Shown in pieces: positions 29,886 through 44,144 of a DNA stretch of 45,661 bases. The first letter of the stretch is position 1; every line of letters starts with the position of its first letter. The stretch spans positions 1 to 45,661 of the forward strand of contig CAKMJS010000102.1 of assembly GCA_927405585.1 (NCBI GenBank). Reading direction: 5' to 3'. The notes under the pieces are model-generated. The model had not been told where the DNA came from and made no database searches. It saw only the letters and a program-made list of their open reading frames with translations. This DNA comes from an uncultured Desulfosporosinus sp. (GTDB taxonomy: Bacteria > Bacillota > Desulfitobacteriia > Desulfitobacteriales > Desulfitobacteriaceae). The position numbers were made by a program, and so were the translations under genes.

Positions 29886-30473
29886 ATGAAGAGCGAATTA
29901 GGAAATAGAACATATCCGATATGGCTATTAATCAATCCAAAATACCCTGATGTTCGATATGATATCTGGAGACCGGTCTTAGACGAAATTCAGGATAGAG
30001 TATTCAGGGAATTGCAAACGAGAATTGATACTACGAATATTTACATTAAAAGCGCTGTGGACGATATTGGAATAGTTCCCAATACTTTAAATTGGTGGGC
30101 TAAGGAAGTCGCCAAAGAAATTGAGTTATTCAGAAAGCTTGTTCGAGAACACAGGCCGAAAATGCTTGTTACGTTTGGTGCTTTTCCTTTTGAGTTTGCT
30201 AGGCGTGTCAATGAAGTAAAACCAGAAAAAGGTCCTAAGGCATGGAGTTCGTTGATTTTGCGAAATGAATTTGACAAATCTATGGAAAACTTTGATATTA
30301 ATCAAACTAACACGATCCCCTTACTACGTCGAGTGCTTACAACGGATAAGTATATAGAGACTCACAATTATATGTCACCAACCGACAGGGAGACTTATTT
30401 CCAACACGTTGGGACAAAGATCGCAGAAAAAATTATCAAGAACAAGAGTAATCTAGATATCTGGATTAAGTAA
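29886..30473 (+). CDS. Unknown-family protein, paralogue 1 of 3 (PNTLNWW/IWIK family)
   Basis: 195-residue soluble protein with no signal peptide or membrane segment. I do not recognise the family. It shares with two later genes the blocks YPIWLLINPKYP, TRIDTTNIY, PNTLNWW, KEIELFR, FGAFPFEFARRV, KGPKAW, IPLLRRV, YFQHVG and the C-terminal IWIK. The segment PKMLVTFGAFPFEF looks like the strand-turn-helix found in uracil-DNA-glycosylase-like folds; this is a weak resemblance only. Strongly ionic and aromatic, with no cysteine. ATG start with AAAGGAG; closed by a terminator at 30491. It is the first gene of a region in which copies of this protein alternate with anion transporters, so a role tied to uptake or assimilation of the transported anion is inferred. 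Confidence 0.85.
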   Translation: MKSELGNRTYPIWLLINPKYPDVRYDIWRPVLDEIQDRVFRELQTRIDTTNIYIKSAVDDIGIVPNTLNWWAKEVAKEIELFRKLVREHRPKMLVTFGAFPFEFARRVNEVKPEKGPKAWSSLILRNEFDKSMENFDINQTNTIPLLRRVLTTDKYIETHNYMSPTDRETYFQHVGTKIAEKIIKNKSNLDIWIK

Positions 30474-30490
30474 GAATATTATTCGACAAC

Positions 30491-30540
30491 AAATAATGCT
30501 CCAAAGAGAATTTATTTTCTTCTTCGGAGCATTATTTTTA
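30491..30540 (+). terminator. Intrinsic terminator after paralogue 1
   Basis: AATAATGCTCC pairs perfectly with GGAGCATTATT across a loop of about 23 bases, followed by TTT. It separates paralogue 1 from the DASS transporter unit. Confidence 0.8.
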
Positions 30541-30653
30541 TGTAAATTTATCTAGATACTTTTAGTATGCGATCTTTTGGCAATAGCGTAACTCTATTAA
30601 GAGCAGTTTGATTTGCTATAGACGCCATGACAGTTATAATGATAATCTTTAAT

Positions 30654-30669
30654 TGTGAGTATAGTCACA
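30654..30669. promoter_or_regulatory. CRP/FNR-superfamily-like palindrome, copy 2
   Basis: TGTGA-GTATAG-TCACA with exact half-sites. Here the flanks TAATCTTT and AAAGATTA are themselves a perfect inverted pair, so the dyad spans about 36 bases (30643-30679). About 40 bases of sequence match copy 1 at 29817. It lies about 310 bases ahead of the DASS gene. Confidence 0.65.
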
Positions 30670-30806
30670 AGAAAGATTAAAAGGAGGATTGATTTGATTC
30701 ACTTGACTTCAGAGATAGAGTTAACTATATAAGGCTTCAATGTATTGGAGGGATTCAATGAACAAAACCATGTATAGGAGTGGAGTAGACCTAAATCATT
30801 GTTTAC

Positions 30807-30846
30807 AAAAAAAAAGCAGCCTAGAAAGGCCGCTAAGAAATTTAAT
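30807..30846 (-). terminator. Duplicated hairpin element, copy 1 (reads as terminator on minus strand)
   Basis: On the plus strand this reads poly-A, AGCAGCC, TAGAAA, GGCCGCT, AAGAAATTTAATG. On the minus strand it is AGCGGCC-loop-GGCTGCT followed by nine T, a good intrinsic terminator with one G-U pair. A close copy is at 34012, and each copy precedes a transporter gene. Either minus-strand transcripts start within the transporter leaders, or the block is a duplicated regulatory piece. Confidence 0.5.
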
Positions 30847-30979
30847 GTAATAGTATTATAACACACAAAACTCAAAAAAATAAGGCCTATAGTTTGTTTA
30901 TTTTGTCATAGGTGGTTGAATACGAACATGATTGAGTGAAAATATGCACCTTGCAAAATGAAAGAAGGGTGTGGTGAAA

Positions 30980-32434
30980 ATGAGTACTAATGCTAAACGA
31001 GTTTTCTTTATTCTACTTGGCGTAGCAATATTTTTCATATTCTTTTATGCTCCACAGTTTAGTCCAGCGGTGGATCCTTCTGGTAAGGCCTTTGAGTTAA
31101 GCCAACAAGGTAAGGCAGCCATCGGATTATTCTTCCTTGCTAGTATATGGTGGGTATTTGAAGTAACCCCTATTGGTGTAACTAGTCTTATGATTGGTGT
31201 TGTTCAAGCTTTATTCCTTATCCGTCCGGCAAAGGAAGCTTTTCGGGATTTTATGGACCCTACAGTATTGTTTATCTTAGGTTCTTTACTGATTGGTTTA
31301 GCTTTCACCAAGTCAGGGATTACCAAACGAATCGCTTACAAAATGTTAGATATTGTGGGCGAAAACACCAGAATGATATTGTTAGGGGTTTTTATTGTCA
31401 CCGCTTTATTAACCCATATTATGGCTCACACTGCAGTGGCGGCTACAATGTTCCCCATTTTAGTGACGATCTTGGCCTTGTATAATGGAGATAACTCCGA
31501 CGGTAAGCCCTCGAAGTTTGGTAAGGCCTTGTTCATTGGAATGGCCTATACTGCAGGTGCAGGAAGTATCTGCACCCTCTTAGGTGGCGCTCGTAACCCC
31601 GCCGCAGTGGGTTTCTATACTCAGTTTACCGGTAAAGAGGTTTCGTTTGTTGACTTTTCGCTTCACTTGGCACCCTTTGGCTGGGCGAGTGTATTTATTA
31701 TTTGGGCATTGCTAATGTTCCTTTATAAGCCAGAAAAATCTCATATCCCGGGCTTACGTAATAAGGCCAGATCAGAGTATACAAAACTTGGCCCGATTAA
31801 TAGCAAGGAAATCTATGTGAGTGTTGTTGTTGCCCTTGCGCTTGCGATGCTGGTATTACAATCCCTAATTCCGGCGTTAAAGACTATGGATCGTTCAGTT
31901 CCGTTGCTACTCGCTGGAATACTATTCTTCCTCTCTAATATCTTGACGGTAGATGATCTAGAGAAGAAGATTCCTTGGAATATCGTTTTACTATTTTCTG
32001 GGGCTATGAGTATTGGTTTCTGCTTATGGCAAACCGGAGCAGCTCAATGGATCGCAATCAAGTGGTTAGGAATGATCGCTGGTGCACACTGGTTAGTGTT
32101 CTTACTGGCAGTTTGCTTCCTTGTGCTTCTGATGACCAACTTTATTATGAATGTAGCTGCTATTGCAATTACTCTGCCGGTTGCCCTCGTTATGGCACAG
32201 TATCTTGGAGTTAACCCTGAGCTGATCCTGTACGGGGCTACAGCAATGGCAGGTATGCCTTTCTTACTGCTGATTGGTGCAGCGCCCAATGCAATTGCCT
32301 ATCAATCGAAGCAGTTCACTACGAGCGAATTCTTTGTGAGTGGTATTCCTGCTAGTGCGGCCATCATGGTCCTCTTGGTAATCATGACCTACACCTACTG
32401 GCCGATAATTGGTATGCCTGCACTACTAAGGTAG
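30980..32434 (+). CDS. DASS/SLC13 family anion transporter
   Basis: About 484 residues, polytopic membrane protein of the divalent anion:sodium symporter family (sulfate, thiosulfate or dicarboxylates). The repeat signatures sit where the SNT sodium-site motifs should be, but read THIMAHTAVAATMFPIL and MTNFIMNVAAIAITLP, so the canonical Ser-Asn-Thr is altered in both halves. GAGSICTLLGGARNPAAVGF is the loop after the first. ATG 30980 is preferred, ten bases after AAGGG; GTG 30971 would lie two bases from it. DASS proteins are one of several families known to carry sulfate in sulfate reducers, and the neighbours (TauE/SafE, SulP) support an inorganic anion, but the substrate is not proven. A hairpin follows at 32450. 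Confidence 0.88.
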   Translation: MSTNAKRVFFILLGVAIFFIFFYAPQFSPAVDPSGKAFELSQQGKAAIGLFFLASIWWVFEVTPIGVTSLMIGVVQALFLIRPAKEAFRDFMDPTVLFILGSLLIGLAFTKSGITKRIAYKMLDIVGENTRMILLGVFIVTALLTHIMAHTAVAATMFPILVTILALYNGDNSDGKPSKFGKALFIGMAYTAGAGSICTLLGGARNPAAVGFYTQFTGKEVSFVDFSLHLAPFGWASVFIIWALLMFLYKPEKSHIPGLRNKARSEYTKLGPINSKEIYVSVVVALALAMLVLQSLIPALKTMDRSVPLLLAGILFFLSNILTVDDLEKKIPWNIVLLFSGAMSIGFCLWQTGAAQWIAIKWLGMIAGAHWLVFLLAVCFLVLLMTNFIMNVAAIAITLPVALVMAQYLGVNPELILYGATAMAGMPFLLLIGAAPNAIAYQSKQFTTSEFFVSGIPASAAIMVLLVIMTYTYWPIIGMPALLR

Positions 32435-32449
32435 TAGAGGCTTAACGTT

Positions 32450-32480
32450 GATACACCTTGGTTTCCGATCAGGGTGTATC
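32450..32480 (+). terminator. Hairpin after the DASS gene
   Basis: GATACACC pairs with GGTGTATC across a 15-base loop, followed by TTTAC. The stem overlaps a GTG at 32474 that could otherwise begin the next frame, which argues against that upstream start. Confidence 0.6.
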
Positions 32481-32563
32481 TTTACAAACAATCTTATCAT
32501 TTTTTTGCCATGAGAGGTATGGATTCGGTCAAAACAACCAGAATAAATGAAAGGTGGGATATC

Positions 32564-33187
32564 GTGTCCGCCTTAGCACGAAATATTTATATACCTTTAG
32601 TTGAACAGGAATCAGGTCATAAAACCTTTCCAATATGGCTATTAACTAATCCAAAATATCCAGATGTAATCAATGACATTTGGAGAAGTGTATTAGATGA
32701 GATACAGGATAAAGTATATCGGGAAATACAGGCTAGAATTGATACCACTAATATTTACATTAGGAGCGTTGTCGGAGATTGTGGAATAGTTCCTAATACA
32801 CTCAACTGGTGGGGAAAGGAAGTCGTTGATGAAATAAGAGTGTTCAGGCAAATTCTACTTGAACATAATCCTAAGATGCTGATTTCTTTTGGTGCGTTTC
32901 CATATGAATTTCTGCGACGGGTATCGGATATGAAACCAGATAAGGGACCTAAGTACTGGAGATCTTCGATTTTAAGAGATGAATTTGATAGATCCGTTGA
33001 GAATTTCAATGTGAACCAATCCAATAGGATGCCCTTACTCCGCAGAGTTATCGAAAGTGATAAATACCAAGAAACACGCGATGATTTCCGTCCCACTGAC
33101 AAAGACCAATACTTTAAACATGTAGGATCAAAGCTATCAAGCTTGATTATACAGAATGTAGATCATTTTAATATATGGATTAAATAA
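32564..33187 (+). CDS. Unknown-family protein, paralogue 2 of 3
   Basis: Second copy of the unrecognised soluble family; about 207 residues from GTG 32564, which has AAGGTGG six bases upstream. The frame is open back to 32474, but that GTG lies in the hairpin after the DASS gene. Relative to paralogue 1 it has about 17 extra N-terminal residues before FPIWLLTNPKYP. The shared blocks TRIDTTNIY, PNTLNWWGKEV, PKMLISFGAFPYEFLRRV, KGPKYW, MPLLRRV, YFKHVG and the terminal FNIWIK are kept. It lies directly behind the DASS transporter and 70 bases before the 110-residue gene. No function assigned. Confidence 0.82.
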   Translation: MSALARNIYIPLVEQESGHKTFPIWLLTNPKYPDVINDIWRSVLDEIQDKVYREIQARIDTTNIYIRSVVGDCGIVPNTLNWWGKEVVDEIRVFRQILLEHNPKMLISFGAFPYEFLRRVSDMKPDKGPKYWRSSILRDEFDRSVENFNVNQSNRMPLLRRVIESDKYQETRDDFRPTDKDQYFKHVGSKLSSLIIQNVDHFNIWIK

Positions 33188-33257
33188 AGGATCAGACGTA
33201 TGAAGCTTTCAACATGACTGCAAAAGCAATACTTTTATTTTTGAAAGGAGATGGAAT

Positions 33258-33590
33258 ATGGAAGCGAAGTATGTGGCCACTATTGATTTCACATCTCTAC
33301 AGGCCTTAAAAACGTTTATAGGAATTGTAAATCAGGCGGGTGGAAGTTTTTTGATTAACGGAGTAAAACCAGATCTAAGCACGATGGTAAATAATCCGAT
33401 TCTTGTTACAGGTACTAAAGCAGAGAATGTTTTCATGTCAGAGATTAAAATTTACGCTTCCACGACCCTAGATTTAGAGAGAGCAAAAGAAGTTTTGAGC
33501 TGTGAAATTGGTGAAAAGGAAATAAAATCGGCCTCTAGTACACTGCTTGAGTCAGTTACAAGCTTTAAAGGGTTTCCCTCACGAAAGTAA
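33258..33590 (+). CDS. Hypothetical 110-residue protein
   Basis: Small soluble protein, ATG with AAAGGAG eight bases upstream, so it is very likely translated. The sequence opens with a beta strand (KYVATIDF), a helix (LQALKTFIGIVNQAG) and FLINGVKPDLSTMVNN, an order that faintly recalls HPr-like folds, but there is no phosphorylatable His and I do not assign it. It follows paralogue 2 by about 70 bases and ends before a strong terminator, so the two probably form one transcript. Confidence 0.65.
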   Translation: MEAKYVATIDFTSLQALKTFIGIVNQAGGSFLINGVKPDLSTMVNNPILVTGTKAENVFMSEIKIYASTTLDLERAKEVLSCEIGEKEIKSASSTLLESVTSFKGFPSRK

Positions 33591-33670
33591 GACGGTTTTC
33601 TTGAACTATTTATTCGATAAAGTATCTAAATCGTATAGATTCGAGCTTTCTAGAGACGGGATGGACGTTA

Positions 33671-33716
33671 TACAAAAGCCTAGGAGATAATTCTTTCTCC
33701 TAGGCTTTTGTATTTT
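33671..33716 (+). terminator. Strong intrinsic terminator
   Basis: TACAAAAGCCTAGGAGA pairs perfectly with TCTCCTAGGCTTTTGTA (17 bp) around a short loop, followed by TTTT. It closes the paralogue 2 / 110-residue unit and could also act in the opposite direction. Confidence 0.88.
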
Positions 33717-34114
33717 AAAGTAGTCCTCATGATTTTAGCTTCAGAGGGACAATCAGATCTTGATTTCGATGAGGGTGGTAGCTCGATAGATATCCATTGA
33801 AAATTCGACAATCAAATACTATTTGAGTATTGGCAATAAAAATAATTGATTATTGCGATCCGATTTACCTATAGACACCTTTCGAATGGAGTGCTACTGT
33901 TGTTTGTGAAAGTAAATGCTAAAGAAAGGAGAAAATCTTATTTAGGATGGGTCACAATATAATTAGCGAGGGTCTGAATATGTCGATAAATATTAGAGGT
34001 ACCTCTTTAAGAAAAAAGCAGCCTATAAAAGCCGCTAAAGAAATTTGATGTGTGCAACCAACGTTCTAAAACTCCAATTGAGAAGCGAAGTTCAATAGAG
34101 GAGGGAAAGTAACC
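33717..34114. other. 400-base leader of the TauE/SafE gene
   Basis: No large gene. Two adjacent perfect dyads, AATACT-ATTTG-AGTATT (33815-33831) and GCAATAA-loop-TTATTGC (33833-33856), are candidate operators. A degenerate half CRP-like site (TGTGAAAGTAAATGCTA) is near 33904. The hairpin element copy 2 is at 34012, and a 22-codon frame (ATG 33979) ends inside it. Confidence 0.45.
34012..34051 (-). terminator. Duplicated hairpin element, copy 2
   Basis: Plus strand AAAAAAGCAGCC, TATAAAA, GCCGCTAAAGAAATTTGATGT matches copy 1 at 30807 with only a few differences. On the minus strand it is a G-U-containing stem followed by TTTTTT. It lies about 65 bases before the TauE/SafE start. Confidence 0.5.
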
Positions 34115-35413
34115 ATGAAATTATACGACTCACTAATGTACGCAGCTAGGGCGCATGCCCAGTGGGAGATTGAAACTTCATTCAACATCATAAAAAACAG
34201 GAAGAAACTGTTGATACTCTTCGTAATGGCCCTGCCTTTACTCATACCAGCAATGGCCCATGCGGCAGCTACTCTACCAGCCTTTATCGGCGGCAAAGCA
34301 GCCTTCGGACCATCCTTCTTTTCAGCCCAAACTTTTTATGGCTCCATAGCCGTAGGTGTCATTGCGGGACTTATTACAGGTGCCATAGGAGCAGGTGGAG
34401 GCTTTGTTATCACCCCTGCGCTGATGAGCCTGGGAGTAAAGGGTATTTTGGCAGTAGGCACTGACATGTTTCACATTTTTGCTAAGGCTATTATGGGCAC
34501 CACCCTACACAAGAAAATGGGGAATGTTCATGCAGGTCTAGCCATCGCCTTTCTGGTAGGTTCTGGCCTGGGGGTCACAGGTGGCGGTAAGATAAATCGC
34601 GCATTATATAACTTTAACCCAATTATGAGCGATTTCGTCATAAGTGCTATCTACGTGCTTCTGCTGGGATATCTGGGTGTTTTCGCAATGGGCAAGTATT
34701 TTGAAAATAGGAAGAAAGCTGCTAAGGACGGTGGAGACGTTCACGGCGGCCCAGAGAAAATTACTGTGATAGGCGCTAAGCTGCAATCTATTCAACTGGC
34801 GCCGATGATCAAGTTCGATGAGAACATTGTCCCCGGTGGGAGAAAGATATCCGGCGTCTTTGTAGCACTTTGTGGTGCCGTGACGGGCTTTCTAGCGTCC
34901 ATACTAGGGGTCGGGGGCGGTTTCGTTACCTTCCCAATGTTTGTATACGGACTGGGAATCTCCACCGCAACTACAGTGGGCACAGATATATTCCAAATTA
35001 TCTTTACAGCTGGTTACGGCTCCATAACGCAGTACGCCATCTACGGTTATGTGTTCTACACATTAGCCATGGGTATGCTGCTGGGTTCGTTATTCGGCAT
35101 CCAAATTGGCGCGATCACCACTAAGGTTGTCCCTGCTACCCAGATCCAAGCCTTCTACGCATTGGCAATCATTGCAGGCTTTGTCAACAGACTCTTCGCG
35201 CTGCCTGAAAAATTAACGCAGATGGGCTATATAAGCCTGTCCGCCACTGCAGGAGCGATAATTACTAAGATCGGAGTATGGTTATTCTTCGGCTTGATTT
35301 CCTTCTTTGCTATCTGGATCATAGGTACATTTATCGTTAATATACCGAAGCTTCGGGCAGAGTCTGCTGCAGATAATGATGTTAAGGTAACCAAAGGAGG
35401 TGTTACCCAATGA
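34115..35413 (+). CDS. TauE/SafE (DUF81) family membrane transporter
   Basis: 432 residues. N-terminal cytoplasmic extension of about 30 residues, then the two-fold repeated TauE/SafE core with glycine-rich re-entrant motifs: GLITGAIGAGGGFVITPALMSLG in the first half and GFLASILGVGGGFVTFPMFVYG in the second, each followed by VGTDxFxxxF. The family exports or imports sulfite, sulfoacetate and related anions, and some members are linked to sulfate uptake in sulfate reducers. The stop overlaps the next gene by 4 bases (ATGA), so the downstream membrane protein is likely a dedicated partner. ATG start with GGAGGG eight bases upstream. Base usage is richer in GGC/CTG/ATC codons than the flanking paralogues. 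Confidence 0.92.
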   Translation: MKLYDSLMYAARAHAQWEIETSFNIIKNRKKLLILFVMALPLLIPAMAHAAATLPAFIGGKAAFGPSFFSAQTFYGSIAVGVIAGLITGAIGAGGGFVITPALMSLGVKGILAVGTDMFHIFAKAIMGTTLHKKMGNVHAGLAIAFLVGSGLGVTGGGKINRALYNFNPIMSDFVISAIYVLLLGYLGVFAMGKYFENRKKAAKDGGDVHGGPEKITVIGAKLQSIQLAPMIKFDENIVPGGRKISGVFVALCGAVTGFLASILGVGGGFVTFPMFVYGLGISTATTVGTDIFQIIFTAGYGSITQYAIYGYVFYTLAMGMLLGSLFGIQIGAITTKVVPATQIQAFYALAIIAGFVNRLFALPEKLTQMGYISLSATAGAIITKIGVWLFFGLISFFAIWIIGTFIVNIPKLRAESAADNDVKVTKGGVTQ

Positions 35414-36123
35414 GCATAGTACGAAACAAAAAGACTTTTACCATGGGTGTGGTCATGCTCCTGAGTTTTATACTCGTCTATGTTGGCATGATGTCCCCTA
35501 ACTTCGGTAACGGCAGGAATGGTCTGGAATACGCGGATGATATGTTTAACTCTCTGTCAAAGGGTTCAGCGTATTTCATTGAGGATGCTCAAAAAGTTGC
35601 TGATGCTCAAAAAGGGAAAACCATCAACGTCACCGTCAAAGCTCCAACCCCCGAAGACGCTGTAAAATGGGGTAAATTGTACACAGTAGCCGGGGCCAAT
35701 GTGTCAGTTAAAGAAGCTTCGGTGACCATCGATGGAGATTTTGGTCAAATTCTAAGTGCAGTTGTGGCTGATAGTGACTTCATGTATCATAATGATAGCA
35801 AATCGCTGGAATTGAAATACGCCTATGATGGTCGCGAAGCAACCAACAACTGGAATAACTCCTTAAAGAAAATTGACGCTCAACTAAAAGCTAAATCGCA
35901 GTTTCAACAAGAATTTGACTTGGTTAAAGTGCAGCAAAAGGCCCTCGAGCCTGGTTATAACTATTTTGGAGTGGAAATTAAGAAGGTAAGTGAAAATAAA
36001 GCCAGTCTCGCCTTCATGCTCAGCTTTTACCTTATATACACCATATGGTACGGCTTTGGACTCTTTTACTTCTTTGATGGACTCGGTATTGTCATTGCCA
36101 AACCGAAGAAGAAAGCAGCTTAA
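35410..36123 (+). CDS. Membrane-anchored partner protein of the TauE/SafE transporter, unknown family
   Basis: 237 residues, starting inside the last codons of the transporter gene. One membrane segment near the N-terminus (about 10-30), an extracytoplasmic domain of about 155 residues (about 35-190), and a second membrane segment near the C-terminus (about 197-222) ending in KPKKKAA. The outer domain has no motif I can name. Translational coupling and the topology suggest a lid, substrate-binding or assembly subunit of the carrier. This is inference from position and topology only. Confidence 0.8.
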   Translation: MSIVRNKKTFTMGVVMLLSFILVYVGMMSPNFGNGRNGLEYADDMFNSLSKGSAYFIEDAQKVADAQKGKTINVTVKAPTPEDAVKWGKLYTVAGANVSVKEASVTIDGDFGQILSAVVADSDFMYHNDSKSLELKYAYDGREATNNWNNSLKKIDAQLKAKSQFQQEFDLVKVQQKALEPGYNYFGVEIKKVSENKASLAFMLSFYLIYTIWYGFGLFYFFDGLGIVIAKPKKKAA

Positions 36124-36152
36124 ATTGATGAAACAATCGGGAGAACATTAGA

Positions 36153-36207
36153 AGTAGCATACTGTCATAAATTCCTATCCCTTATTGTTAGGTGGTCGTA
36201 TGCTACT
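36153..36207 (+). terminator. 10-bp inverted repeat after the TauE unit
   Basis: AGTAGCATAC at 36153-36162 pairs perfectly with GTATGCTACT at 36198-36207. It lies between the partner gene and paralogue 3, 20 bases before the latter. No T run follows, so it may be an attenuator or operator rather than a terminator. Confidence 0.4.
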
Positions 36208-36226
36208 GTGAGGGGATTGAAGGCCG

Positions 36227-36880
36227 ATGAAGAGAGAGTCGGGGGAAAGAAGTTATCCTTTATGGATAGTATTTAATCCAAAACACCCTATTAGCCATGA
36301 TAATTGGACCCCAGTATTAAGTGAAATTCAGGACAAAGTTTATAGAAAAATCAATACAAGAATCGAAACTACGAATATTTATTTTCGGAATGCGGTGAGT
36401 GATAGTAGATTTGTACCCAATACTTTAAATTGGTGGGGACCCGTAGTAACCAAAGAAATAGAGTTATTCAAGGAAATTGCTTTAGAATATAAACCGAGAA
36501 TTATATTTTCTCTGGGCGCTTTTGCCTTTGAATTTTTGAGGCGTGTTTATGAGATCAAGCCCGAAAAAGGACCTAAAGCTTGGAGTACTTCAAACCTAGG
36601 CGACGAGTTTGAAAGATCAATTGAGACCTTTGATATTAACAGAACCAATATAATTCCCTTACTCCATCGAGTCGGAGCGAGTGCTAATTTCATTGACACT
36701 TACAATCATTTCCATGGAAATGACAGGGAGAATTATTATCAGCATGTAGGTGCTAAATTAGCAGAAAAGATTATTGAGAATAAGGATTGCCTAGATATTT
36801 GGATTAAACAAACGTCCGTTCCTACTAATGCTATGGATACAGCAGCATACAGCCTCGTCCAAGTGAGCACGTTCAACTAG
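36227..36880 (+). CDS. Unknown-family protein, paralogue 3 of 3
   Basis: Third copy of the family, 217 residues, ATG with GAGGGG and AAGG upstream. All shared blocks are present: YPLWIVFNPKHP, TRIETTNIY, PNTLNWWGPVV, PRIIFSLGAFAFEFLRRV, KGPKAW, IPLLHRV, YYQHVGAKLAEKII and LDIWIK. Unlike the other two it continues for about 23 residues beyond IWIK. It follows the TauE/partner pair and converges on sulP. Divergence among the three copies is substantial outside the blocks, so the duplications are not recent. Confidence 0.85.
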   Translation: MKRESGERSYPLWIVFNPKHPISHDNWTPVLSEIQDKVYRKINTRIETTNIYFRNAVSDSRFVPNTLNWWGPVVTKEIELFKEIALEYKPRIIFSLGAFAFEFLRRVYEIKPEKGPKAWSTSNLGDEFERSIETFDINRTNIIPLLHRVGASANFIDTYNHFHGNDRENYYQHVGAKLAEKIIENKDCLDIWIKQTSVPTNAMDTAAYSLVQVSTFN

Positions 36881-36910
36881 TGTTGACATTGAGACTCAAA
36901 ATTAAGAAAA

Positions 36911-36952
36911 GACAAAAGATGATTCTGTCATGAGCAGGAGTCATCTTTTGTC
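36911..36952. terminator. Bidirectional terminator between paralogue 3 and sulP
   Basis: GACAAAAGATGA pairs perfectly with TCATCTTTTGTC (12 bp). The arms carry AAAA/TTTT within the stem, so it can serve both converging genes. Confidence 0.75.
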
Positions 36953-36997
36953 GCTACCATAAGTATCTACGATTGTTGTAGTTTTTTGAATTACAAT

Positions 36998-38716
36998 TTA
37001 GGCTTGAATTGTTCTCTCCGCAGTCTTATAACTTGAGTTTTTGACAAAGGAGTTAGCAACGTCCAGATCCTTACCGGAAGTGGCAAATACTTCATCTTCA
37101 TCCATAAAGATGTTATCAATCCCGACGTGGTCTGCAATATGCATTTTATTCAACATTTTAAGGATTTTAGGGGTAACTCCGGATAGAATAACTCTCTTAT
37201 CTTCCTCGAGAGCTCTGTTAATGAACGATTCGATGACTTCCAAGGCAGTAATATCGACAATTGAAACTCCTGCGAAACGAATAAGGAAAACTTTAGAGTC
37301 TGAGTAAGAGTCACTCAACTTTCTTTCTAGATCGGCCGAAGAACCAAAGTACAAATTTCCTTCTAATTGAATAACTGAGACCGATGTATTCTGCCCATTA
37401 ACGCTCTGTTCTACGAAGCGCCCCTCACTGCCTCTGATCGATTCCAGAGTTTTGACACTCGCCACACCGGAATCTTTGAGGTAGAGAAGTAATGAGATGG
37501 CTACGCCTGCATAAATGGCTTGTTCTAAATGACGGGCAAAGATGGTAGTTAACATAGTGACTAATAATACGATGGCATCATTGCGGTTGGTTGTTAATAC
37601 CTTTTTGAGGGCTTTCTTGTCAATCATTGAGTAGGCAACTAACATGATCACCCCAGCTAAACTTGCATTGGGGATATATCTCGCAAAGGGAGCTAAGAAA
37701 ATTAACACTACGAGAATTATCAAACCTACTAAAACGCCAGTTAAACGAGTTTTCCCACCATTTTGGTAAGTTATGGCAGACCTTGTGAAGGAACCAGAGC
37801 CAGCTATACTGCTAAAGAAAGATCCCCCTAAATTCGCCATTCCCTGGCCAATAAATTCTTGATTGGGGTCTATCTTTTGATGGGTTTTAGAAGCGATGGC
37901 TTTGGAGATAGCTACTGCTTCAACCAGACCGATGATTGCAATGACCGCTGCGCCTGCTCCTAAATCGCTGATAGCTGAGAGTGAAAAGTTGGGCATACTT
38001 AAGGGGGGAATGGCTGAGGGAATTTCCCCGACAACCTTGACTGCATATTTTTCCAAATCTAAAATCATTACCAAAATTACTGAGAAAATAACACCCAATA
38101 ACGCTCCCGGTAAGTTTTTGTTGATTCTTTTGCTTATTAAGACGACTGCTATGGTAAACATTCCGACACCAAAGGCATAATAATTCATTTGGCCAATACT
38201 TTGAAAACTTGTTACAACCTTACCAATACTCGATAGGCCACTTGGAAGTTTAACGCCTAATAAGTTATTCAGTTGTCCCATTGCAATAATTATACCTGCT
38301 CCAGCGGTGAACCCTACGATAACTGCGTGTGAGACGTAGTTAACCAGGGAACCAAGTCTTAGCAAACCCATAGCAAGCTGAATAGCTCCTACTAAAAAGG
38401 TTAGCAGGAATAGATTAGCAAAGAAGTTATCAGTCCCTGCAAAGGGTAGCATATATGCTGCAATCAGGAGACAGATAGCGTTTGTGGGTCCGGTGGCCAA
38501 CTGATGGGAACTACCAAAGGATGACGCAATAATGGTTAGGACAATACCGGCATATAACCCGTAAGCCGGGTGAACACCTGCAATCATCGCATAAGCCATA
38601 GTCTGTGGTAAAGCAACTACCGCAACCGTAAGTGCTGCCATTAAATCAAATCTAAAATTCTTTTTATCATAATTAACTAACGTGTCAAGAATAGGAATAT
38701 ACTTGATAAATTTCAT
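36998..38716 (-). CDS. SulP family anion permease with STAS domain
   Basis: 572 residues. An SLC26/SulP membrane core (about 15-400; ALPQTMAYAMIAGVHPAYGLYAG is the family signature, GSFFSSIAGSGSFTRSAI the second conserved loop) followed by a cytoplasmic STAS domain (about 440-545; SVIQLEGNLYFGSSADLERKL, RFAGVSIVDITALEVIE). SulP proteins carry sulfate, bicarbonate or other anions. ATG start with AGGAGG eight bases upstream. On the minus strand, with about 420 bases between it and the sigma-54 promoter at 39140, across a decayed gene. Control by the adjacent NtrC-type activator is therefore likely, with sulfate as the probable substrate; both are inferences. Confidence 0.93.
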   Translation of the reverse strand: MKFIKYIPILDTLVNYDKKNFRFDLMAALTVAVVALPQTMAYAMIAGVHPAYGLYAGIVLTIIASSFGSSHQLATGPTNAICLLIAAYMLPFAGTDNFFANLFLLTFLVGAIQLAMGLLRLGSLVNYVSHAVIVGFTAGAGIIIAMGQLNNLLGVKLPSGLSSIGKVVTSFQSIGQMNYYAFGVGMFTIAVVLISKRINKNLPGALLGVIFSVILVMILDLEKYAVKVVGEIPSAIPPLSMPNFSLSAISDLGAGAAVIAIIGLVEAVAISKAIASKTHQKIDPNQEFIGQGMANLGGSFFSSIAGSGSFTRSAITYQNGGKTRLTGVLVGLIILVVLIFLAPFARYIPNASLAGVIMLVAYSMIDKKALKKVLTTNRNDAIVLLVTMLTTIFARHLEQAIYAGVAISLLLYLKDSGVASVKTLESIRGSEGRFVEQSVNGQNTSVSVIQLEGNLYFGSSADLERKLSDSYSDSKVFLIRFAGVSIVDITALEVIESFINRALEEDKRVILSGVTPKILKMLNKMHIADHVGIDNIFMDEDEVFATSGKDLDVANSFVKNSSYKTAERTIQA

Positions 38717-39139: not shown

Positions 39140-39155
39140 AGCAAGAATCATGCCA
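39140..39155 (-). promoter_or_regulatory. Sigma-54 promoter facing sulP
   Basis: Minus strand TGGCATG-ATTC-TTGCT matches the -24/-12 consensus TGGCACG-N4-TTGCW with one mismatch and exact spacing. Transcription would run towards the decayed module and sulP. An identical 16-base element lies at 44129. An NtrC-family activator with GAFTGA is encoded about 1.7 kb away on the other side. Confidence 0.85.
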
Positions 39156-39367: not shown

Positions 39368-40903
39368 TTGTTAAGATTCATGAAAAATAAATCCTTCGCC
39401 TCTCAAATAATGTTCACTGTGACAGCTATCCTGTTAATCCCAATTCTGGTGATGATGTACGACATATTTTTCTCTAGCGCCAAAGATGAAATGCTCTTAA
39501 AAACGAAGGAAGAGCGATTGGGCACTATAGTTAACACCACTGTCATGGGACTAACAGAAGTTATGGACAGTTCTAAGATAGACTACAGCTTCCCACTCAC
39601 TTCTGAGAATTTAAATATACTGACGAACTCATTTAAAGTTATTACAGAGCCGTTGACAGACGGAAATCCTGGAGTACGGCTAGGTCTGTATATTCCTGAA
39701 ACGCATGATATTGTCATTTATGGTTACCTACACGATTACCGGCCAAAAACGGACGAAGAAAATATAGCAAGAGAGTCTCGAGTTTTTAACGAAGCCTCCT
39801 CAGGTCTAGTTGCGGTTAAGGCTACTAAAGAACCACTTTCTCGTATCACAGGTTCGCTGGGTAACCAAACTTTTGAATATTTAATGCCTGTGCTGCAAAA
39901 CGGAGAGCTAGTAGCGATTGCCTGGGCCGACGAACAGGTTCATCCAGTCTTTGCCCAGAGCAGGAAATTCAGTCTAATCACTCGATACCTGACGCTTGTG
40001 GGATTGATTTTCGGTCTAGGAGCTGCTCTTTATGTAACTCATACCTTGGCCACTGAAGTACAGATTATCAAAAATGGAATCATGGGTATGCAGGAAGACA
40101 GTGATATTAGGTTGCCTTCTATGCCGGGGGAAATCGGGGAAGTTGTCAATGCTATAAACAATATGGCTGATAATCTAAAGGAAAAGAAACGACTGAAAGA
40201 AGAAATAATGCGATCCGAAAGACTGGTAGCGCTTGGTCGCCTCGTGACTGGAGTTGCCCACGAATTGAGAAATCCGTTGGGGATCGTCAAAGCGACCGTC
40301 CAAGTTATGGAGGGAGAGTTTCAAAATCAATTAGAGTTGAAAGAATATACTAAGGTTATTTGTGAGCAAATTGATAGAGGCAATAATGTCATTAAAGAGT
40401 TGTTAGATTTTGGTCGTCCAAGAAAACCTATTGTGAGCCCCACTGACTTAAATGGTTTATTAGAATCCGTTCTTACCTTTACTTATCCAACCTTAAGGCA
40501 GAATAATATTATGCTGGAGAAGAGGTTTGAGCCAAATCTACCTTTGGTTAATATCGACAGGGATCGAATGAAACAGGTTTTTGTAAATTTAATTTTCAAT
40601 GCTATTCAAGCAATGCAGGGTGGAGGTAAACTTATCATCAAATCACTCGTGAATGAAGAGGCCATTGAAGTGAACTTTATCGATTCAGGTATTGGCATTA
40701 ATGCCTATGATCTTCCACGGGTGTTTGACCCTTTTTACACTACGAGAGATGATGGTTCTGGTTTAGGGCTATCCATCAGTTATCAAATCATTCACATGCA
40801 CATGGGTAAAATTTGGGTTTCTGAAACTTCCCCCAATGGTACAACTATGGCGGTGAGTATACCCAGATCAAACCTTGATGAAGGAAGTGTTGTTGTTGAA
40901 TAA
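39368..40903 (+). CDS. NtrB-type membrane sensor histidine kinase
   Basis: 511 residues. First membrane segment about 15-32, an extracytoplasmic sensor domain of about 170 residues, second segment about 205-225, HAMP (about 225-278), then the H-box ALGRLVTGVAHELRNPLG (His near 298) and a C-terminal ATPase (NLIFNAIQAMQGGG, DSGIGI, GSGLGLSI). The GVAHELRNPL H-box with an N-box of the FNAIQAM kind is typical of kinases paired with NtrC-family activators. TTG start with GGAGG six bases upstream. It overlaps the activator gene start. The sensor domain is unassigned; because the promoter of the pair faces sulP, it may sense anion or sulfur status. Confidence 0.92.
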   Translation: MLRFMKNKSFASQIMFTVTAILLIPILVMMYDIFFSSAKDEMLLKTKEERLGTIVNTTVMGLTEVMDSSKIDYSFPLTSENLNILTNSFKVITEPLTDGNPGVRLGLYIPETHDIVIYGYLHDYRPKTDEENIARESRVFNEASSGLVAVKATKEPLSRITGSLGNQTFEYLMPVLQNGELVAIAWADEQVHPVFAQSRKFSLITRYLTLVGLIFGLGAALYVTHTLATEVQIIKNGIMGMQEDSDIRLPSMPGEIGEVVNAINNMADNLKEKKRLKEEIMRSERLVALGRLVTGVAHELRNPLGIVKATVQVMEGEFQNQLELKEYTKVICEQIDRGNNVIKELLDFGRPRKPIVSPTDLNGLLESVLTFTYPTLRQNNIMLEKRFEPNLPLVNIDRDRMKQVFVNLIFNAIQAMQGGGKLIIKSLVNEEAIEVNFIDSGIGINAYDLPRVFDPFYTTRDDGSGLGLSISYQIIHMHMGKIWVSETSPNGTTMAVSIPRSNLDEGSVVVE

Positions 40904-42260
40904 GATACTTGTTATAGATGATGAAGAGCATATGTGTTGGGCTCTCGAAAAGGGTCTTCGCCAAGAAGGATATCAGGTGTTAACTGCTACGCGTGGAAGA
41001 GCAGGTCTAGAAATAATTCGTAATGAAACACCTTCTTTGGTTATTCTTGATTTAAAGATGCCAGAAATGGATGGGCTGGAAGTATTGGTTAAGGCCAAAG
41101 AAATCATTCCAAAGCTTCCTATAATTATGTTGACTGCCCACGGTACAATTAACACCGCCATCGAAGCTATGAAACTTGGCGCTGTTGACTATATCACCAA
41201 ACCTTTTGACCTTGATGAGTTGAAAATAGTCGTAAAGCAGGCCTTAAAGGTTAGTTCTTTACAGGAAGAAGTTTTGTTTTTACGTTCTGAACTTAAGAAA
41301 AAACACGGTCGAATTATAGGCAACAGCCTGGCAATCCAAGAAGTTAACACTCTCGTAGAAAGGGTAGCGGACAGTAATGCTACGGTATTAATTACCGGGG
41401 AAAGCGGGACAGGTAAAGAGGTTACTGCGCTGTCGATCCACCACCTAAGCTATCGTCGGGAAAAACCTTATGTGCCAATTAACTGTGCCGCTCTACCAGA
41501 ATCACTGCTAGAAAGTGAGCTGTTTGGTCATGAGAGGGGGGCCTTCACAGGTGCGGTGGCCCGGAAATTAGGTCGTTTTGAATTAGCGGATAACGGAACA
41601 CTTTTCTTAGACGAGGTCACTGAAATGCCGCTGTCTATGCAAGTAAAACTGCTGCGTGTTCTTCAGGAAAGGCAGTTTGAAAGGGTAGGAGGAACCGAAA
41701 GTATCCATGTCAATGTACGGGTAATTGCCGCTACTAATCGTGATCCGGTGGAGTGCATTAAAGATGGGACTTTTCGAGAAGATTTGTATTACCGATTAAA
41801 TGTTCTGCCGATTCATATACCTCCCTTACGGTTAAGAGCAGAAGATATACCTCTCCTGACTATGCACTTTCTTCAAAAATTTAACCCCGCTCAGGAACAA
41901 ATGATTTCACCAGAGGCCATGGGGTTATTAATGACCTACGAGTGGCCAGGAAACATCCGAGAGTTACAGAACGTAATCGAAAGATCCGTTATTCTCTCTC
42001 AAGGAAATGACATTAAGGTACACCATTTACCAAAAGAAATTCAAAGCATTCAAACTCTTGCAAACAGCAAAAACGAGGTTGATCAAGGTTTGATTTTAAA
42101 CTTCCCAGACAAGGGGATCTCCTTTGATGAGGTTGAAAGAGAGCTGATTCTTAAAGCTCTTGAGAAAAGTAGTGGGAATCAAACTAAAGCGGCCCACCTA
42201 TTGGGACTTACTCGATCGGCACTTCTTTATAGAGCTCAAAAATATCAGATTAAGGTATAA
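40896..42260 (+). CDS. NtrC-family sigma-54-dependent response regulator
   Basis: 454 residues. Receiver (1-120; VIDDEE, phospho-Asp52 in ILDLKMPEMDG, Lys in ITKPFD), AAA+ sigma-54 activator domain (about 140-375) with Walker A GESGTGKE (about 168), the sigma-54-contacting loop GAFTGA (about 215), Walker B GTLFLDEV and the Arg-containing REDLYYRLNVLPI, then a Fis-type HTH (about 415-454, GNQTKAAHLLGLTRSALLYR). I start at TTG 40896: the ribosome site AAGGAAG and the following NKIL segment match the second regulator at 44399 exactly. It activates sigma-54 promoters by ATP-driven remodelling; the two sigma-54 promoters here are obvious targets. Confidence 0.95.
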   Translation: MNKILVIDDEEHMCWALEKGLRQEGYQVLTATRGRAGLEIIRNETPSLVILDLKMPEMDGLEVLVKAKEIIPKLPIIMLTAHGTINTAIEAMKLGAVDYITKPFDLDELKIVVKQALKVSSLQEEVLFLRSELKKKHGRIIGNSLAIQEVNTLVERVADSNATVLITGESGTGKEVTALSIHHLSYRREKPYVPINCAALPESLLESELFGHERGAFTGAVARKLGRFELADNGTLFLDEVTEMPLSMQVKLLRVLQERQFERVGGTESIHVNVRVIAATNRDPVECIKDGTFREDLYYRLNVLPIHIPPLRLRAEDIPLLTMHFLQKFNPAQEQMISPEAMGLLMTYEWPGNIRELQNVIERSVILSQGNDIKVHHLPKEIQSIQTLANSKNEVDQGLILNFPDKGISFDEVERELILKALEKSSGNQTKAAHLLGLTRSALLYRAQKYQIKV

Positions 42261-44128: not shown

Positions 44129-44144
44129 AGCAAGAATCATGCCA
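44129..44144 (-). promoter_or_regulatory. Sigma-54 promoter of the 56-aa/163-aa module
   Basis: Same 16 bases as at 39140: TGGCATG-ATTC-TTGCT on the minus strand, with one mismatch to consensus and exact GG-GC spacing. It faces the 56-residue gene. Confidence 0.85.

Follow-up and report, generated by a model that had tools for sequence, protein, structure and literature searches.

Why does one family of soluble proteins alternate with unrelated anion carriers in an uncultured Desulfosporosinus sp.? The question is raised by contig CAKMJS010000102.1 of assembly GCA_927405585.1, which we analysed over its entire length of 45.7 kb (45,661 nucleotides; referred to as the window) and which belongs to a genome totalling 4.48 Mb. 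A preliminary description of this stretch had noticed three paralogues of a family that it could not name, interleaved with DASS, TauE/SafE and SulP carrier genes, and had faintly suspected a fold like that of uracil-DNA glycosylases (UDGs). We found that the family is new and lineage-specific and has the UDG fold. For its role we tentatively prefer a co-opted carrier partner, most likely a ligand-sensing regulator of oxyanion carriers, and we put the chances of this reading somewhat below even.

The three genes (copies 1 to 3 in Table 1) do encode one family. All are open frames on the plus strand and their products share 58-64% pairwise identity with E values of 4e-77 or better. For copy 2 the GTG start at 32564 agrees better with the homologues than a start at 32474. 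The ratio of nonsynonymous to synonymous substitution rates (dN/dS) against orthologues was 0.05-0.28 (11 of the 12 pairs gave a defined value). The genome holds no family matches besides these three, and a remnant of a fourth copy was sought between the SulP and the kinase gene of the window and not found. For the three proteins no Pfam or NCBIfam model scored above its cut-off, PHROGs gave chance-level matches alone and PADLOC none. A search of the PDB sequences with a 71-member profile found no match, and with copy 3 one match at chance level. The carriers had been named correctly, as the model matches in Table 1 demonstrate, and they are indeed interleaved with the copies. However, SulP lies on the minus strand, convergent with copy 3, and so the two do not share an operon.

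The hunch about the fold was borne out by structure prediction. The model computed from 82 sequences reached a predicted local distance difference test score (pLDDT) of 85.6 and a predicted template modelling score (pTM) of 0.85, and its predicted alpha/beta architecture with a four-stranded parallel sheet is that of the UDG superfamily. All nine PDB matches that Foldseek returned at E <= 0.001 were UDG or UdgX. In the VIA realignment 49 of the 50 listed chains were UDG, UdgX or thymine-DNA glycosylase, and the remaining one was a phage DNA polymerase, which presumably carries a UDG-like domain. The best structural match was 1ui1 (Z 10.8, root-mean-square deviation 3.2, 145 aligned). For the model of a distant Ignavibacteria relative (L143; pLDDT 75.9) a family 4 UDG was again the best match (Z 9.3). 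At the sequence level, 16 of 71 members matched PF03167 at E <= 1 (best 4.4e-4). The curated cut-off of 24.3 bits was not reached by copy 3 (12.6 bits) or by L143 (15.8 bits), and copies 1 and 2 gave no match. A plain PF03167 search of 30 relatives returned two family copies at 20.0 and 17.4 bits, which is below the cut-off as well, and hhalign comparisons of the family with small UDG alignments of relatives gave E values of 0.015, 0.045 and 0.53, too weak to count. Ordinary UDG genes occur elsewhere in the family-bearing genomes, including the window's own (G000:C3:11310; we number genomes with G, contigs with C and sequence stretches with L), and thus the family is not the sole UDG-type protein of its genomes.

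We placed the UDG motifs on the family by secondary structure, position and eye. The residue statistics, like those for neighbours and tree below, are based on 102 frames drawn from the window and from 40 fetched stretches (out of 127 matches, three of them fragments). The motif-1 loop of the GQDPY or GEGPG type with its base-stacking Phe is missing. In its place about six residues (17-22, N-P-K-H/Y-P) join strand 12-16 to helix 23-43 in the predicted structure. The apparent motif 2 (HPSPL in UDG) reads N-x-I-P-L and lacks the His, with N142 and P145 found in all 102 copies. Residue 56, at the N80 place, is N in 60 copies, S in 33 and another residue in 9, and N66, perhaps at the motif-3 place, is N in 85. 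Seven residues are invariant in all 102 copies (Q36, R46, E103, R107, W120, F129 and F136) and lie outside the UDG motifs as mapped. The four-Cys 4Fe-4S signature of family 4 was not found: no column conserved at 90% or more across the 102 copies holds a Cys, and the median is one Cys per protein. In family 4, catalysis involves H155 of motif 2 and N89 of motif 3, and E41, E47, F54 and N80 form the pocket; UDG families 2 and 6 also lack the motif-2 His (PMC5387724). The reduced motif 1, the motif-2 Asn and the variable N80 place argue that a classical uracil glycosylase is unlikely. An activity on another base may exist.

The family is narrowly distributed. It was found in 27 of 29 Desulfosporosinus genomes with 1 to 8 matches each (16 of the 16 good genomes), in both genomes of the sister genus Acididesulfobacillus and in none of the 42 genomes from the rest of the order, which amounts to 29 of 73 genomes and 2 of 22 genera. 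An even sample of the phylum contained three positive genomes among 398, all Desulfosporosinus. We also scanned one genome per species (84,980 species) with short patterns, which remote kin can escape. The best 80 of 85 relatives, at 60 loci, belonged to Desulfosporosinus, Acididesulfobacillus, Peptococcaceae bacterium CEB3, one Bacillota bin and one Ignavibacteria protein. The latter (L143:4877-5548, 31% identity) is the sole relative outside the two genera among the relatives listed. It has a longer motif-1 region, with GDSEP followed by LDPRHP, and may reflect the ancestral form. By eye, no carrier was recognised among the eight frames of its 10.4-kb contig. Plasmids and phages contained no relative of this protein, and viral contigs neither a relative of it nor a match to the family profile. 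Two weak matches from a 395-genome sample of the bin's phylum (L154 and L155) were false and appear by eye to be a peptidase and a foldase-like protein. Across the genus the suspected link with anion carriers holds. Since the range of the family comprises just two sister genera and one distant relative, it does not accompany DASS, TauE or SulP in sulfate reducers generally.

Within this range the copies are found close to carriers. In the fetched stretches 78 of the 102 copies have a SulP, DASS, ArsB/CitM-like or TauE gene at a distance of 3 kb or less, 63 of them at 1.5 kb or less and 38 at 500 bases or less. Of the 24 misses, six are located at a stretch end with a SulP gene just beyond, which raises the count to 84 of 102; this figure includes the SulP places and at least the TauE places listed, with DASS and ArsB taken from the stretches alone. 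The neighbourhood survey proposed in the preliminary description supports the link with anion carriers for most copies and not for the other 18. At the same distance of 3 kb, 60 copies have a Usp gene and 50 a kinase or response regulator as neighbour. The tree groups the copies by neighbour: we counted 23 label changes compared to a shuffled mean of 65.3 and a minimum of 59 (1000 shuffles), and without the unlabelled rows 16 changes compared to a mean of 51 and a minimum of 44. The tree comprises 101 rows (one short frame was omitted) and results from a quick search with Shimodaira-Hasegawa-like approximate likelihood ratio test (SH-aLRT) support only; 32 of the 102 copies carry the label 'none', partly from stretch ends or tight distance limits. 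The window copies fall into three clades of 12, 10 and 12 rows, each with an SH-aLRT of 99, whose members lie before DASS, after DASS and after TauE1, respectively. With one paralogue per carrier such a grouping would be expected, and shared descent of one syntenic block contributes to it.

Family and carriers also share an upstream element, first exposed as a 37-base repeat before DASS and TauE1 within the window. Its consensus is AGCNGCC-N4..7-GGCCGCTAAG. A regular expression identified 30 elements in 41 sources, 12 of them before DASS, 9 before the family, 7 before SulP and 2 before TauE1; a narrower pattern found no matches, since the loop lengths vary. A covariance model built from 26 of the 30 elements gave 78 matches in 26 of the 29 Desulfosporosinus genomes, where the scans scored part of the first-look candidates and weak elements may escape. 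The 62 matches in mapped stretches precede the family (13), DASS (12), TauE1 (12), SulP (11), an unnamed protein termed c8 (10) and Usp (4). The other 16 are found just upstream of SulP (11) or TauE (1), without a fitting gene (3) or at a contig end (1). In total 74 of the 78 matches in the genus precede the family, its carriers, Usp or c8, leaving G018:C8, G018:C31 and G024:C236 without a fitting gene and G019:C88 at a contig end. Six element-bearing SulP genes are located on contigs without a family match (G005:C633, G010:C36, G017:C59, G018:C5, G026:C114 and G027:C196), which indicates that the element tags the carriers in their own right. In the order as a whole, 28 of the 73 genomes carry it; these are 28 of the 29 family-positive and none of the 44 family-negative genomes. 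In two genomes of the sister genus that were kept outside the model building, all four matches precede SulP or a Usp-TauE-partner-family block. Genome G022 has two family copies and a SulP gene, and no element was detected in it. Four 20-kb stretches that bear sat (L186, L188, L190 and L192) contained no element.

The element may be an RNA hairpin or, alternatively, an operator with a -10-like ATTATA box. In many copies this box lies about 17 to 22 bases downstream by eye, a spacing that may suit a promoter. Among the 26 founder elements no base pair is changed on both sides. In an alignment of 61 sequences, which is fitted to the covariance model and leans to it, five of seven pairs show one two-sided change each with 94% of the cells paired, and none of 500 shuffles scored as high. 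Rfam reported no family at its gathering score in the window, and a generic sigma-70 and terminator scan performed at chance level.

The carriers and the family also adjoin the genes of sulfate respiration in several relatives. A sat motif and AprB occur at the upstream edge of the cluster in the four near-complete genomes G002, G007, G011 and G028 (one to three contigs each). In G011 two qmoA/qmoB-like genes come first, then a qmoC-like gene, sat (PF01747), aprB (PF12139) and aprA, followed by SulP, Usp and the family, where the names qmo and aprA are probable readings of domains and gene order. Within the order 21 of 73 genomes have an AprB match; they belong to the same two genera and all 21 are family-positive, and 44 genomes have neither. 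Thirteen genomes have AprB and the family on a single contig, no more than 10 kb apart in 12 of them and about 104 kb apart in G029; in the remaining 8 genomes they are on different contigs. For D. orientis, SulP (Desor_1738), DASS (Desor_1742) and TSUP (Desor_1745) have been reported near sat/aprAB (PMC5840216). This gene order agrees with G011 and with L054/L186, and by this order the locus is the same. From the gene order, the UDG-fold genes would correspond approximately to Desor_1740, 1741 and 1747, and G011 would be D. orientis. The section of that paper on genomic context does not mention the family, the Usp genes or the upstream element, and its main text contains neither 'universal stress' nor 'hypothetical'.

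How could a repair fold have come to stand beside these carriers? In the scenario that we tentatively prefer, an ancestral UDG-like protein would have lost most of the canonical motif-1 catalytic loop and then multiplied, and the copies would have been drawn into the locus for sulfate respiration in Desulfosporosinus and Acididesulfobacillus. Most paralogues are neighbours of a single oxyanion carrier (DASS, SulP or TauE), many in what looks like a joint operon. Each would act as the cytoplasmic partner of its carrier and probably touch it, in the style of the PII proteins of AmtB and SbtA. The former base-binding pocket would sense an internal signal of the pathway, possibly an adenylate (adenosine 5'-phosphosulfate (APS) or AMP) or the oxyanion itself. 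The protein would then adjust uptake or export. We favour a ligand-sensing carrier regulator because the pattern of one paralogue per carrier resembles PII-type partners such as SbtB for SbtA. The UDG fold with its lost motifs, the pairing by clade, the upstream element and the proximity to sat-aprB in several relatives also speak for this scenario.

Several observations weigh against this interpretation. To our knowledge the UDG-fold proteins so far characterised act on nucleic acids, and the family is mostly basic (median isoelectric point 8.5, range 5.4-9.5), a charge that would fit the binding of nucleic acids too. For 18 of the 102 copies a distance of 3 kb yielded no carrier; these lie beside kinase/regulator pairs, MgtC, an operon with heterodisulfide-reductase-like and flavin oxidoreductase domains, or none of these. 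Neither the species scan nor the phylum sample returned relatives from other sulfate reducers. The element was not detected upstream of copy 1, nor in 17 of the 40 family-bearing stretches (L064-L077, L079, L080 and L082), some of which contain carriers (L073 and L079). Two of the 28 element-bearing genomes, G024 and G019, showed no match with a fitting gene, the one in G019 being at a contig end. The sat motif was not found in the 45.7-kb window, including the 29 kb upstream of the cluster, the AprB of this genome is on another contig (C148), and eight family-positive genomes have no AprB match. Furthermore, the co-occurrence of family, AprB and element is phylogenetically confounded, as all three are confined to the same two sister genera.

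The strongest rival makes use of the usual chemistry of the fold. Here the family would be a nucleic-acid enzyme or binder, a glycosylase of the UDG superfamily specialised for sulfite damage, which we consider unlikely. Sulfite, a product of APS reductase, turns cytosine into sulfonated dihydrouracil. Sulfites leave adducted deoxyuracil that is resistant to uracil-DNA N-glycosylase (PMC3521656). Loss of the motif-1 loop may open the pocket for such a bulky, non-planar base, and the conserved K19, R148 and R149 could hold the sulfonate. The fold and the basic isoelectric point fit this explanation, as do the position beside TauE/SafE and, in several relatives, sat-aprB, the possible motif-3-like N66 and the constant motif-2 Asn; the missing His also has its precedent in families 2 and 6 (PMC5387724). 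However, the motif-1 loop is almost gone, the N80 place alternates mainly between N and S, most invariant residues are outside the mapped motifs, ordinary UDG genes are present in the same genomes, and the species scan and phylum sample did not show the family in other sulfate reducers. A single enzyme gene would be enough, whereas the genomes contain up to eight matches, mostly near a carrier of their own. Less likely again is a dedicated self-sulfite defence, in which a UDG-superfamily enzyme would recognise uracil or cytosine in sulfonated form, whether in DNA, in RNA or in the nucleotide pool, and would be made in step with sulfate uptake and sulfite export. If true, the family would be the first repair protein known to us for a lesion that ordinary UDG cannot remove.

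The shared element could also point to a gene regulator, where the UDG scaffold would bind the upstream inverted repeat or hairpin and the copies would control the carrier genes. The near-complete overlap of element-bearing and family-positive genomes in the order and the mostly basic proteins are consistent with this. But we recognised no known DNA-binding motif, the element is missing from the stretches of many copies and from G022 with its two copies, and a single regulator gene would suffice. We rate it below both sulfite-related explanations. At the bottom of the scale, and very unlikely in our view, is the explanation that the copies are passengers of a family that duplicated and spread by chance within a single gene-rich region, without a functional tie to the carriers. 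Many copies do share one syntenic block and the 18 copies with no carrier found nearby would be easily accommodated. Purifying selection in the 11 pairs speaks against it, as do the clade-specific neighbours, the elements directly before 13 copies and the presence of the family in every good Desulfosporosinus genome.

Table 1. Coordinates of the family copies, carriers, upstream elements and neighbouring features in the window.
Feature	Position	Strand	Remarks
UDG-fold family copy 1	29886..30473	+	195 aa; clade: before DASS or second in SulP-Usp block
Upstream element before DASS	30806..30876	+	AGCAGCC..GGCCGCT hairpin/inverted repeat, AAGAAATTT, ATTATA box; covariance E 2.2e-10
DASS sodium:anion symporter	30971..32434	+	TIGR00785 above cut-off, PF00939
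UDG-fold family copy 2	32564..33187	+	207 aa from GTG; open frame from 32474; clade: directly after DASS/ArsB-like
Stand-alone STAS piece	33258..33590	+	110 aa; aligns with C-terminal (STAS) end of SulP proteins
Upstream element before TauE1	34008..34079	+	covariance E 8.1e-5
TauE/SafE-type carrier (TauE1)	34115..35413	+	PF01925
TauE1 partner protein	35410..36123	+	237 aa; 4-base overlap with TauE1; no family match
UDG-fold family copy 3	36227..36880	+	217 aa; clade: after TauE1 and its partner
SulP carrier with STAS domain	36998..38716	-	PF00916/PF01740
Sigma-54 (-24/-12) type site TGGCATGATTCTTGCT	39140..39155	-	upstream of SulP; 21 of 22, own consensus score
Sensor histidine kinase	39368..40903	+	divergent from SulP
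NtrC-type response regulator	40875..42260	+	receiver, sigma-54 activator, Fis helix-turn-helix
Sigma-54 type site, same sequence	44129-44144	-	past the NtrC-type regulator

Some of the neighbouring features in Table 1 recur in the relatives. TauE1 and its partner co-occur, as the same 14 of 41 sources hold both. The 110-aa frame after copy 2 is, judging from its alignment, the STAS end and thus a C-terminal remnant of a lost SulP. Similar frames are found at the same place in two other species, in L050 (11195-11545) and L052 (8578-8925), with 56-64% identity and a dN of 0.22-0.27 compared to a dS of 0.65-1.06. Because dN is well below dS, this fragment, kept in three species, may still be functional. 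Sigma-54 type sites scoring at least 20 of 22 were found in 13 of 102 upstream regions of the family compared to 9 of 537 for other genes. The 13 copies form a set distinct from the element-bearing ones and each has a kinase or regulator as a neighbour.

Further genes were encountered repeatedly around the clusters. Usp-like proteins are amplified beside the carriers, with 65 clustered copies in 22 of 41 sources and one member confirmed as PF00582. The unnamed protein c8 (L044:13430-13900 and 12 further sources; about 156 aa) lies between the post-DASS copy and TauE1 in many clusters; Pfam gave no match for the one member checked, and the clustering found none in the window. In L074, L076 and L080 family copies directly follow an Fe-S/flavin/cysteine-rich (heterodisulfide-reductase-like) operon, and no carrier was found nearby. 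Paired short chromate-transporter genes (one member PF02417) end the clusters L055, L056, L057, L058, L059, L061 and L079; these pairs are a further oxyanion carrier type of the same neighbourhood.

Taken together, the data suggest that a DNA-repair fold was taken over for sulfate respiration. Multiplied and tied to sulfate and sulfite carriers, it would show a nucleic-acid enzyme re-used in respiration, or alternatively would reveal how sulfate reducers cope with mutagenic sulfite. Which of the candidate proteins take part in sulfate transport in sulfate reducers has been said to need extensive molecular studies (PMC5840216). The upstream element is a sequence tag that singles out particular SulP, DASS and TauE genes and makes this question directly testable. 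Among the matches listed for the UDG superfamily, pseudoenzymes, Desulfosporosinus sulfate carriers, omics and regulons, neither family nor element appeared in titles or abstract beginnings, with few subscription papers or preprints included.

The closest known structures are the family 4 UDG of Thermus thermophilus (Tth UDGa, PDB 1ui0/1ui1) and UdgX, which have the same fold and order of strands and helices as the family at roughly 10-17% identity in structural alignments. In a weak profile alignment (E 0.045) the N-I-Y-I-K and P-K-M-L-V-T-F-G strands fall on their counterparts in family 4. Unlike these enzymes, the family has its genomic setting in anion transport and sulfate respiration. 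In Desulfovibrio, too, sulfate reduction genes are the centre of a regulon, that of HcpR (PMC545781); there the site TTGTGAnnnnnnTCACAA precedes sat and aps, whereas the element reported here has a different sequence and precedes carriers. For the role that we tentatively prefer, the nearest parallels are the PII-type pairs GlnK-AmtB and SbtB-SbtA, and SbtB is a small soluble partner encoded next to the carrier SbtA (PMC10117731). The PII superfamily has a ferredoxin-like fold, in contrast to the UDG fold of the family. The likeness is confined to the way the pairs would work, with the gene of a small soluble protein beside that of a carrier, as in the clusters described here.

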